Positions 2,786-6,960 of a stretch of DNA of 41,389 bases are shown piece by piece (position 1 is the first letter of the stretch; each line of letters begins with the position of its first letter). Origin of the DNA: Methylacidiphilum caldifontis (GTDB lineage: Bacteria; Verrucomicrobiota; Verrucomicrobiia; Methylacidiphilales; CAMAQI01); contig CAMCSM010000015.1 in NCBI GenBank assembly GCA_945877805.1, forward strand, positions 1 to 41,389, written 5' to 3'. The notes under the pieces are model-generated. The model was not told the DNA's origin, ran no database searches, and was given only the letters and a program-made list of their open reading frames with translations. Position numbers and translations under genes: made by a program.

Positions 2786-3301
2786 ATGATCAAAATCTTC
2801 CTGCTCTTTCTTGGTCTGATCTCCTTCGGGAAAATAATTCCCGATGCATGGATGACCTATTTTTATCTCCCTAGCGCCCAACTGACCTCACTCTACTTGG
2901 GGTTCCCGCTGATTGCAGATTCAATCCATCACTATTTTAAAATCGAACATCCCCTTTATCCGATCGAAATCATTCGTGCCTGCTCTGGATTTCAATTTTT
3001 TAGCATGCTATTTGCGCTTCTTTTTTTCTTAGCCGACTCATGGAATTGGAAAGCAATTTTAAGACTTCTCCTATTCACTTGGGGAGTCACGATCATCGCA
3101 AATACGTTTCGAATGATCTGCACCCAATCCACACGCGCTTGGACAACCCCGATGATCGGAGAGCATTGGCAGGGAGCTCTCCATGAATCCGTTGGAGCGC
3201 TTATTTTTATTATCTCAGGAATTTTAGCCTATCTTTGGAAGAACAACGACTTCCCGATTATTTTTCAATCCTTAAAAACCTCTACCCGGAAACTTCTATG
3301 A
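2786..3301 (+). CDS. Compact exosortase (archaeosortase/exosortase family transpeptidase)
   Basis: This is a 171-aa membrane protein with about four to five hydrophobic segments. The exosortase triad is visible: Cys66 in ACSGFQ, Arg109 in the NTFR motif, and His133 in ALHESVG. Family members cleave a C-terminal PEP-CTERM-type tail at the membrane and transfer the protein to an acceptor. It is short compared with EpsH/XrtA proteins and lacks an EpsI domain, resembling the small single-target exosortases (XrtK or XrtN type; subtype not certain). Its stop overlaps the next gene's start (ATGA at 3298-3301), and that gene carries a PEP-CTERM tail, so the two form a dedicated enzyme/substrate pair. 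The start ATG lies 15 bp after the remnant frame. Confidence 0.85.
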   Translation: MIKIFLLFLGLISFGKIIPDAWMTYFYLPSAQLTSLYLGFPLIADSIHHYFKIEHPLYPIEIIRACSGFQFFSMLFALLFFLADSWNWKAILRLLLFTWGVTIIANTFRMICTQSTRAWTTPMIGEHWQGALHESVGALIFIISGILAYLWKNNDFPIIFQSLKTSTRKLL

Positions 3302-6276
3302 ATAAAGATCAAACCCTTATTGAAGATCAAGTAACACAGCCTTGGATGCCTGATTTCCTTACCACTCCTTGGTGGTGGATTTGGATCGTCACTCTTCCAC
3401 AAATTCTCCTCTTTACTCTCGCTCAACATCACTATTGGATTATTTCAGAGGAAATTAACTCCTCAAGCCGATGGGACTGGTGGACCTTGTTTATTCTGGA
3501 GGGAATTACCGCCATCTCGGGAATTGTCGCTTTTATTCTCAACCGAAAATTTAAAAACCGGATTTCTTGGTGGCAGGGATTGATTCAAATCGCTCTTGGC
3601 TCTCTTCTTGTTACTTGGCTCATGAATAACGATCAAGGGCTCTTCCCCTTAAGCCTTGGCTTTCAAAGTGAATGGATGATTCAATCAAGCGATTTCTTTG
3701 GACTTCATATCGGACTTTGGATGCCGATGATCATCGGAGGACTTTGGAGGATCGCAGGCATTCCCTCTCCTTTTACACTTCGAAAAGATACCGGGTACTC
3801 TGTTTTAGGAATCATTGCCGCCCCCGTTTCTTGGTTTGGAGTCGGTTTTTTAAGCCTCATCTTTTCTCCCTTGAATAACTACGGTTTTGATAGAATTTCA
3901 GGCTCTCTTTTTGTTCTGATATTTGTGACCACAACGTTCGTCCTAATGGTTAGCCTTTTACGTCTCATTCTTCTTTGGGGTCAAAAATGGGGGCTTCGCG
4001 AAAAAGGGGATCACCGACTCGTCACGCTCCTCTTTACTTTGGTCTTTCCACTCGGTGGATTAATTCTGAATCATTACATTCCGTTTCCAACCTCATTTCA
4101 AGAACCGATCATTTACGGGCTCGCTATTTTCAACGGTTTTATCGTCGCTCTTCCTTATCCTGAAGGCTCTTGGGGTCGTCTTGTCCTTTTCACCCTTAAG
4201 GCCATCACCTTCTCTTTTACTCTCTATTTCTTCATCGTCTTTCTTCCTTACCTTCCCCTTTTCATTCCTGCGATGATCCTCTTCGGATTAGGATTTCTGA
4301 TCCTCGCCCCAACGATTCTGATCGGCCTTCATTCGATCGAACTCCATCGTGGCTGGAAAATACTCGGAACTAGTTTCCATCCCGGACTTCGAACATTGAT
4401 TCTCATCATCGGCTTCGCTCTGCTCCCAACTCTTTGGATTTCTATCGCTTCAAGGGATCGGCTCGCGATCCATTCGGCACTCGATTTTGTCTACTATCCT
4501 CACGATGATGGAGATCAAATTTTTGATTCAAATCTTTGGAATCTAAAAAATGCGTTAGATAATCTTAATCAGATTAAATCTCACTCCAATAAACCGTTTC
4601 TCACAAATCTCTACAGTAAGATAGTCATGGATCAAATGGTTCTCCCTGACGATAAGTTAAATAAGCTCTACCACTTATTTTTAGGCCAAGAGCGCCCAAA
4701 AATAGAACCCTCGATGAATGGAATATTTTCTTCATCCCCTCGCAGTGAAAGCCGTTGGGAGGTGGAGCAGCAAAACACCGCTCCTCCTCGAACTGTCGAC
4801 CTTCTCCAAGCGTTATGGTCACAAGTACCTCCTTCTGCTGAAGGAGTCAAATCCCAAGAACTTCATCTTACTCTTAAGAACAGAGGGGAAGGAAATGCAG
4901 AGTTTTGGACAGAACTTGAACTCCCCGAAACCGTCTTGATTGAACAGTTTCAACTCAAAATCGGAGAACAATGGGTCGAAGGTCGTCTTTTTGAAAAAAA
5001 AGCCGCAGAATGGGTTTATCAAAAAATCATCCACACACGACGAGATCCCGCTATTCTCCGTTATTTAACGCCTACTCAGCTTGATCTTCGTGTCTATCCC
5101 TTCGCTTTAAACGAAGTGAGGGAAGTCAAAATCAAGTTTCTCTTTCCGGCAGGGGAACCCGTTGATTTTCAATCTTTTCCCGAGCGTCTCGTTTTTAAAA
5201 CTTCAAAAAACAAAAATCTTCAAGTTAAAGCAAACGATCAATACTACTCCTTGTTCTCTAAAGAATTACTATCCACTCTCCCTCATTTGAATCGAAAGCC
5301 TTATCTTCATTTTGTGGTTGATCGTTCCGCCTCAGGGGCTATCGATCTTTCCTCCATCGATTGGAAGCCTCTTGTTAAAATTCTCACCCCCTCGACCCGC
5401 TTTGCGATACTAGACGCAAACTTCAATCGGATTCATCGATCTACGACAATGATGTCAGATTGGAGTGTAGAAAAAATAATCCATCAATCCCCTCTTCCAA
5501 TCAAAGGAGGCCGAGATGACGATTCTATTCTAAAGTCGATCGAATGGTTTTATCAAAAACAAATCTCCGATAGTTCTGGTAAAAATCAACTCTTTGATGA
5601 ATATCCAGTAGTTATCTGGCTTTCCAAAGTGCCTCCTAAAATCTCCCCTTTACTTCTCCGAGAATGGAAAGAAAAATTTGCATCAGAAGCACTTCTTTAC
5701 TATTGGAACAGCCCACTTTCTCTCCTTGAATCCTTGTTTTTCCAAACGAGTCATACCTCCGTCATCGCTTTTAAATCGGGAAAGCAAACCACATGGGCTA
5801 ACGACGAGACGAATCGATGGCTTCCCTCACTACTTCCCGATTGGAGCCACTTCGATAATGGATCTTTCAAGACGCTTTCTCCCCAGCTCGAGAATAACCT
5901 CCTCGTGAACAAAAAATATCTTCAAGGCTTAAAACTTCTCTCGTTGGAGAAAAGACTGGAAGAGGAAAGATATAATGTAAAAAGACTGCTCCCTGAAATT
6001 GTTCTCCTTTCTAAGTCAATCGGTCTTCTCTCCCCCAGCCTCTCCTTCATTGTTGTTGAAAACTCGATGCAATGGAAAACCCTTGAAGAGGCAGAAAAGA
6101 AAAAACTTAAGGGACATCAATCTTTGGAGTTTAATGAACCCAATTCAAGTTCAACCCCTGAACCATCCACCTACGTTCTTATGATTTTAGCGGGATTGAT
6201 CTTTTATTGGAAAAAATGTTTAGATAAGAAAAATCTCTCGACGATTTCCGCATATAAAGATAGGACAAACTCGTGA
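3298..6276 (+). CDS. Multispanning VIT-domain protein with VWA-like region and PEP-CTERM tail (dedicated exosortase target)
   Basis: The start is set at the ATG overlapping the exosortase stop, giving 992 aa. Residues about 15-400 hold a dozen or so hydrophobic segments. A soluble region follows, with a VIT (inter-alpha-trypsin) domain at about 515-620 (GEGNAEFWTELELPETVLIE, AAEWVYQKIIHTRRDP, LDLRVYPFALNEVREVKIKF). Next comes a VWA-like region with a DRSAS sequence at about 675-679, matching the MIDAS DxSxS pattern. The end has PEPST (about 954-958), a short hydrophobic helix (YVLMILAGLIFYW) and a basic run, i.e. a PEP-CTERM sorting signal. This architecture corresponds to known exosortase-linked VIT proteins (MSEP-CTERM/XrtK or XrtN systems). 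Its job is unknown; exposure of the VIT/VWA part on the cell surface is inferred. Confidence 0.85.
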   Translation: MNKDQTLIEDQVTQPWMPDFLTTPWWWIWIVTLPQILLFTLAQHHYWIISEEINSSSRWDWWTLFILEGITAISGIVAFILNRKFKNRISWWQGLIQIALGSLLVTWLMNNDQGLFPLSLGFQSEWMIQSSDFFGLHIGLWMPMIIGGLWRIAGIPSPFTLRKDTGYSVLGIIAAPVSWFGVGFLSLIFSPLNNYGFDRISGSLFVLIFVTTTFVLMVSLLRLILLWGQKWGLREKGDHRLVTLLFTLVFPLGGLILNHYIPFPTSFQEPIIYGLAIFNGFIVALPYPEGSWGRLVLFTLKAITFSFTLYFFIVFLPYLPLFIPAMILFGLGFLILAPTILIGLHSIELHRGWKILGTSFHPGLRTLILIIGFALLPTLWISIASRDRLAIHSALDFVYYPHDDGDQIFDSNLWNLKNALDNLNQIKSHSNKPFLTNLYSKIVMDQMVLPDDKLNKLYHLFLGQERPKIEPSMNGIFSSSPRSESRWEVEQQNTAPPRTVDLLQALWSQVPPSAEGVKSQELHLTLKNRGEGNAEFWTELELPETVLIEQFQLKIGEQWVEGRLFEKKAAEWVYQKIIHTRRDPAILRYLTPTQLDLRVYPFALNEVREVKIKFLFPAGEPVDFQSFPERLVFKTSKNKNLQVKANDQYYSLFSKELLSTLPHLNRKPYLHFVVDRSASGAIDLSSIDWKPLVKILTPSTRFAILDANFNRIHRSTTMMSDWSVEKIIHQSPLPIKGGRDDDSILKSIEWFYQKQISDSSGKNQLFDEYPVVIWLSKVPPKISPLLLREWKEKFASEALLYYWNSPLSLLESLFFQTSHTSVIAFKSGKQTTWANDETNRWLPSLLPDWSHFDNGSFKTLSPQLENNLLVNKKYLQGLKLLSLEKRLEEERYNVKRLLPEIVLLSKSIGLLSPSLSFIVVENSMQWKTLEEAEKKKLKGHQSLEFNEPNSSSTPEPSTYVLMILAGLIFYWKKCLDKKNLSTISAYKDRTNS

Positions 6277-6794
6277 ACATTCTCCAGAACCCGATGACCC
6301 GATATCGACTATCCCTTGGACTCTTTATCCTCGGACTGATTCTCAGCGGAATCACCGCCTTCCCGCTTCTCATCGAACTTCGACTGCTCTGCCAAATCTT
6401 CGGGATTGATAAGATCACCGATCCTCAAAGCCTTGAGGGTATTCGCTATTGGATTCTGGTAGTTAAACTCGGCCTCGAAGAGATCTACAGCAAATACCCT
6501 TGGTACGCCTACGGGACAGATTGGCTTGCCTTCGGACATTTAGTCATCTCTCTCTTTTTTATTGTCCCTTGGTTCAAACCGATCGGAAATGAATGGGTTC
6601 TGTGGATTGGAATCATCGCTTGCCTCGGCGTCCTCCCTCTTGCCCTCATTTGTGGTGAAATCCGGGGAATTCCTTTTTACTGGAGACTCATCGACTGTTC
6701 TTTTGGGCTGTTTGGGATTCTCCCTCTTATGTACTGTCTCCGACAAATTAAACAATATAAGCAGTCAGCAGATTTCGCTGATCAAAATTCGTGA
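6273..6794 (+). CDS. Four-helix membrane protein, third gene of the exosortase operon
   Basis: The frame is 173 aa from a GTG that overlaps the previous stop (GTGA at 6273-6276); an ATG at 6294 is an alternative. Four hydrophobic segments are apparent (about residues 15-38, 85-102, 107-125, 142-158), with a polar loop EEIYSKYPWYAYGTDWLAFGHL between the first two. I do not recognise a named family. The overlap indicates translational coupling with the exosortase and its VIT target, so a role in the same sorting or display system is likely but unproven. Confidence 0.7.
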   Translation: MNILQNPMTRYRLSLGLFILGLILSGITAFPLLIELRLLCQIFGIDKITDPQSLEGIRYWILVVKLGLEEIYSKYPWYAYGTDWLAFGHLVISLFFIVPWFKPIGNEWVLWIGIIACLGVLPLALICGEIRGIPFYWRLIDCSFGLFGILPLMYCLRQIKQYKQSADFADQNS

Positions 6795-6801
6795 CTCTCG
6801 G

Positions 6802-6960
6802 ATGAAAAGAAGTTTAATCTCCCTTTTCACTGGATTATTATTGATGAATTTTTCTCAATCAGAATCACCACCTTCCAAGGCTACGCTCCCTCAAAAGCTC
6901 CCTGTCGGGATCTTTTATTCCGATCTCTTATCTGCTTTACTCTTAGCCCTCGACCCATAA
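6802..6960 (+). CDS. Possible small exported peptide (52 aa)
   Basis: An ATG eight bases after the previous stop opens a 52-codon frame, MKRSLISLFTGLLLMNFSQS and onward, with a basic start and hydrophobic core like a signal peptide. There is no strong ribosome site, no conserved motif, and a hydrophobic end (SDLLSALLLALDP). It may be real as the last gene of the exosortase operon or just an open stretch before the esterase. Confidence 0.35.
   Translation: MKRSLISLFTGLLLMNFSQSESPPSKATLPQKLPVGIFYSDLLSALLLALDP

Follow-up and report, generated by a model that had tools for sequence, protein, structure and literature searches.

A compact XrtK-like exosortase and its MSEP-CTERM family partner in Methylacidiphilum caldifontis, followed by a third gene that is probably unrelated

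Introduction

A Cys/Arg/His transpeptidase-like model for exosortases was proposed by Haft et al. (2006, PMC1569441), and it was subsequently described that VIT/VWA proteins swap their sorting tails and that dedicated systems tend to adjacency (Haft and Varghese, 2011, PMC3237569). The described systems that come closest to the locus discussed here are MSEP-CTERM with exosortase K (XrtK) and the XrtN-system VIT protein with XrtN. A search of a paper library for MSEP-CTERM, XrtK and exosortase K found no experiment on any MSEP/XrtK pair, while a different exosortase-family protein, XrtF, is needed together with its associated protein for surface colonisation by Flavobacterium johnsoniae (PMC10936215).

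Here I consider three genes on a stretch of 41,389 nucleotides from Methylacidiphilum caldifontis, called the window throughout, which an earlier note had read as one enzyme, one substrate and one partner forming a self-contained surface-display machine. My own reading, to which I would give a probability of roughly 0.85, is that the first two genes are a MSEP-CTERM/XrtK dedicated system and that the third is a bystander, probably unrelated to them.

The locus and its surroundings

The three open reading frames run end to end on the plus strand with a four-base overlap at each of the two junctions, and a check of the sequence and its reading frames bore out this layout, which the earlier note had described with its ATGA and GTGA joins and with correct coordinates. 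The features are as follows.

2786 to 3301, plus strand: compact exosortase, XrtK-like, 171 aa, with catalytic Cys66, Arg109 and His133 and matches to TIGR04178, TIGR04287 and PF09721
3298 to 6276, plus strand: MSEP-CTERM family protein, 992 aa (TIGR04286, VIT domain PF08487, AlphaFold model, ITIH1 match)
4861 to 5139, plus strand: VIT domain, residues 522-614 (PF08487, E = 8.1e-8)
5296 to 5763 (approximate limits), plus strand: VWA-like part with D675-x-S677 (model strands and helices from about residue 667, ITIH1 fold match)
6154 to 6216, plus strand: PEP-CTERM sorting signal, made of PEPST, a hydrophobic helix and basic residues (TIGR02595, 21 bits in a genome search)
6273 to 6794, plus strand: membrane protein, 173 aa, from a family without a name, found in 1 of 79 MSEP loci and outside the conserved system
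6802 to 6960, plus strand: shortened 5' remnant of a histone-deacetylase-family gene that is whole in the same-genus genome G389

At the first junction the ATGA at 3298-3301 contains the ATG of the 992-aa protein (at 3298), and at the second the GTGA at 6273-6276 contains the GTG start of the 173-aa protein (at 6273). This second overlap is credible because an AGGA about 8 nt 5' of the GTG, a plausible ribosome-binding site, is well spaced, and because third-gene homologues have a comparable N-terminal extension, starting a few residues ahead of the conserved block that they share with it. RNA structure was looked for at the ATGA and GTGA overlaps and none was found; the promoter scan gave 6 sites against the 6.8 expected from shuffles, hence no excess, and terminator-like sites numbered 8 against 5.3 +/- 1.8 in shuffles. 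Upstream of the exosortase, on the minus strand from 383 to 2675, lie short open reading frames that mostly have no Pfam match and resemble gene remnants, one of them with a weak Phd/YefM antitoxin match and perhaps belonging to a small toxin-antitoxin pair.

The history of the downstream side can be followed in G389, whose contig 123 matches the deacetylase remnant over 192 bp at 94.8% identity and carries the whole gene (L112, 4313-5428; PF00850, 327 bits). That genome has no MSEP match, and the 3' end of the third gene, 18 codons long, persists before its intact deacetylase-family gene, an AbiEii-family gene also preceding the latter (the counterpart in the window is 6738-6960). Since G389 keeps the end of the third gene and the window only the start of the deacetylase gene, the comparison indicates that the locus is rearranged in both genomes, and their ancestor probably carried the third gene ahead of the deacetylase gene.

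The enzyme and its substrate

Run against the exosortase models, as the earlier note had proposed, the 171-aa protein passes the general ones, namely the exosortase signature TIGR04178 (37.4 bits, cut-off 23) and Pfam PF09721 (33.0 bits, cut-off 25.7), but reaches only 37.8 bits with exosortase K (TIGR04287), below the curated cut-off of 55. Because it falls short there, though TIGR04287 is its best specific NCBIfam model, I file the enzyme as XrtK-like. The same cut-off is reached by only 1 of the 32 MSEP-bearing genomes searched, and of the 25 such genomes that have a TIGR04287 match, 24 likewise score below it, so that the model is narrow and many diverged enzymes fall under it. Cys66, Arg109 and His133, the triad named in the earlier note, are invariant in 59 of 59 enzyme homologues, which together with the general models sustains the identification as an exosortase. 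Two more full-size exosortases, scoring 138 and 135 bits, are encoded in the same genome, as are several other candidate PEP-CTERM proteins.

The 992-aa protein matches TIGR04286 with 414.3 bits against a cut-off of 150, its residues 21-973 covering positions 3-914 of the 920 in the profile. In the AlphaFold model (mean pLDDT 78, pTM 0.79) about 11 long N-terminal helices are followed by a soluble part and then by a C-terminal helix at 958-987; a strict hydropathy cut-off counts fewer membrane segments than the model has helices. The VIT domain already recognised is confirmed by PF08487 (32.9 bits, cut-off 26.5), and in fold the soluble part resembles inter-alpha-inhibitor heavy chain 1 (ITIH1), a VIT and VWA protein (E = 1.5e-11). 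The DxSxS reported for the VWA-like part stands in its first two residues, D675 being kept in 63 and S677 in 61 of 67 homologues, and fails in the third, which is not conserved; a full MIDAS motif is ruled out as a family feature. As for the reported PEP-CTERM tail, it passes TIGR02595 when the terminal 75 aa are scanned in isolation (20.3 bits, cut-off 16) and stays under the cut-off in a full-length scan (14.6 bits), while P956 of the PEP motif is kept in 64 of 67 homologues, other conserved parts of the substrate being a block at about residues 251-341 in the membrane part and the VIT core.

MSEP homologues were gathered from 388 genomes of the phylum, 62 of the order and GTDB contigs, the profile scan of the latter covering Verrucomicrobiota, Kiritimatiellae, Bacteroidota, Treponema, Elusimicrobia and others, and removal of duplicates left 79 distinct loci. 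Of the 69 distinct loci with at least 700 nt of upstream sequence, 57 have XrtK directly before the MSEP gene and in the same orientation; this adjacency was found in Verrucomicrobiota, Bacteroidota and others, with a start codon permitting the same 4-nt overlap in nine loci. Pairing on this scale, with the TIGR04286 score, upholds the proposal of a dedicated compact exosortase with a single multispanning VIT/VWA substrate, and MSEP-CTERM/XrtK, which had been offered as the closest parallel, proves closer still: judged by sequence, the pair in the window is a member, a dedicated exosortase and substrate of a type already named by NCBIfam.

A proposed mechanism

The helices, about 11 of them, would insert the substrate in the inner membrane and leave the VIT-VWA domain exposed to the periplasm. 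An odd number of N-terminal helices implies a periplasmic ectodomain and a cytoplasmic C-terminus, and the model thus predicts the topology that an exosortase substrate needs, with its basic end in the cytoplasm. By analogy with known exosortase biology, from which I infer both cleavage and transfer, and on the model of Haft et al., the tail, which ends in PEP motif, membrane helix and basic residues, would be attacked beside the PEP motif by Cys66 of XrtK with the help of Arg109 and His133; this would remove the C-terminal helix and leave the end of the ectodomain either free or attached to an acceptor in the envelope. The protein so trimmed should remain in the inner membrane and could serve as an envelope tether or as an adhesion or sensing domain, the need for XrtF in F. 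johnsoniae making an envelope or adhesion role no more than plausible.

Tail type and available enzyme

The tail in the window reads TPEPST, which is of the canonical PEP type, and the literal MSEP motif is absent. Only about 16 of the 52 XrtK-paired members have a MSEP-type tail, the verrucomicrobial ones mostly carrying others such as xPAP or SPEP, and the TIGR04286 model therefore does not demand the literal motif. A canonical PEP[SAT][TA] tail is found in 7 of 9 full-length MSEP proteins without a nearby XrtK against 1 of 52 with one, that one being the window (Fisher p = 6e-7, or 4e-6 with two near-identical loci merged, for a rule set after inspection of the tails and a test that ignores phylogeny). 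The TIGR02595 cut-off, a check only partly independent of this rule, is passed by 5 of 8 XrtK-less tails against 1 of the 11 XrtK-paired tails scanned, window excluded; one other XrtK-less tail, from Hymenobacter, is PID-CTERM (32.5 bits), and the five genomes with XrtK-less canonical tails that were surveyed all have full-size exosortases. Tail type may, on these comparisons, track the available enzyme in the MSEP family. I would go further only tentatively, at a little under even odds, and propose that loss of XrtK leads to the gain of a tail for a general exosortase (PEP-CTERM, once PID-CTERM) and that the window is an intermediate in which two exosortases may compete. The loci without a neighbouring XrtK in the tail comparison include L038, L113, L114-L116, L127, L128 and L167, and the MSEP genes of L114 and L115, from two genomes of the same order, stand beside apparent nitrogen-fixation genes (a nifH-like open reading frame, identified by eye).

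The third gene

For the 173-aa protein there is no sequence match in NCBIfam, Pfam or the PDB, and a PDB fold search gave no match (best E 0.83). Its homologues share a DWLAFxH motif that hardly varies, and most are 41-53% identical; they form a family that is sporadic in Verrucomicrobiota, with one member on a Streptomyces plasmid, and elsewhere they adjoin unrelated genes, among them aminoacyl-tRNA synthetases, recA and transporters (neighbouring frames read by eye). With its family profile the gene was found in 1 of the 79 distinct MSEP loci, only the window, 71 of the loci having at least 600 nt downstream; and in the sample of 388 genomes from the phylum, 27 have a MSEP protein above the cut-off, about 12 contain a strong homologue of the third gene and a single one, that of the window, has both, where 0.84 would be expected by chance.

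Shared neighbours do exist in some other XrtK-MSEP loci of Verrucomicrobiota and Bacteroidota: a winged-helix regulator of the HTH_34 type, small membrane proteins that Pfam does not name, a membrane protein of about 400 aa and CreD-like proteins (PF06123, 484 bits in one locus). As possible functional partners they are more promising than the third gene of the window.

Alternative readings

A three-part machine, in which the third protein partners XrtK or the substrate, would make sense of the GTGA overlap with its plausible ribosome-binding site, but the gene was not found in any of the 78 remaining distinct loci, for most of which downstream sequence exists, and its homologues stand beside unrelated genes and co-occur with MSEP at chance level. 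I consider it highly improbable, and the survey of 79 loci and the 388-genome sample lead me to reject it; non-conservation of the third gene in orthologous loci is what the earlier note itself had named as telling against its conserved partner, and a tight overlap in one genome is no evidence of shared function. The third gene codes for a membrane protein, lies next to the pair locally and probably has nothing to do with it. Nor does the pair look like a surface-display system that carries the VIT/VWA domain to the outside of the cell, which I think unlikely even though export of PEP-CTERM proteins and their anchoring outside have been proposed (PMC1569441). Such display is hardly the obvious interpretation, since C-terminal cleavage leaves the N-terminal helices in place; these would hold the protein in the inner membrane if no second cleavage took place, and no protease for that is seen at the locus. 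The earlier claim of self-contained display fits poorly with these helices, and the genome has two more exosortases and several other PEP-CTERM proteins.

Those two full-size enzymes raise another question, whether one of them mainly cuts the MSEP protein of the window while XrtK is redundant or being displaced. The tail scores as canonical PEP-CTERM, as the XrtK-less members do, and the genome has both the general exosortases and other PEP-CTERM candidates; against this, the XrtK gene is intact, encodes the full triad, overlaps the substrate gene and bears no sign of decay. I regard displacement as rather doubtful and hold to the dedicated MSEP-CTERM/XrtK pair. The tail/enzyme correlation is nonetheless the only part of the locus worth following, since it offers a testable route to what a compact exosortase recognises in a tail, with XrtK-paired and unpaired MSEP members as a natural experiment.

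Comparison with known systems

The pair in the window is an ordinary dedicated exosortase pair that brings MSEP-CTERM/XrtK to one more lineage. As in MSEP-CTERM/exosortase K (TIGR04286/TIGR04287), a compact exosortase adjoins a multispanning VIT protein of about 950 aa with a C-terminal sorting tail, and the differences are an enzyme under the curated cut-off, a tail that is PEPST rather than MSEP and the extra, non-conserved gene that follows. XrtN and the XrtN-system VIT protein (TIGR04476/TIGR04477) share the plan of an exosortase devoted to a multispanning VIT protein, but membership was rejected, TIGR04477 reaching no more than 31 bits where the cut-off is 250, with its best stretch over the VIT domain. 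Similarly, PEP_integral (TIGR02921) is a multispanning protein with a PEP-CTERM tail, and here too membership failed, at 20 bits against 200 and over the C-terminal part only. The VIT/VWA families with LPXTG, GlyGly-CTERM or PEP-CTERM tails (PMC3237569) have the same type of ectodomain and, like the protein of the window, a tail that suits a resident sorting enzyme, but they are served by sortase, rhombosortase or a general exosortase and not by XrtK.
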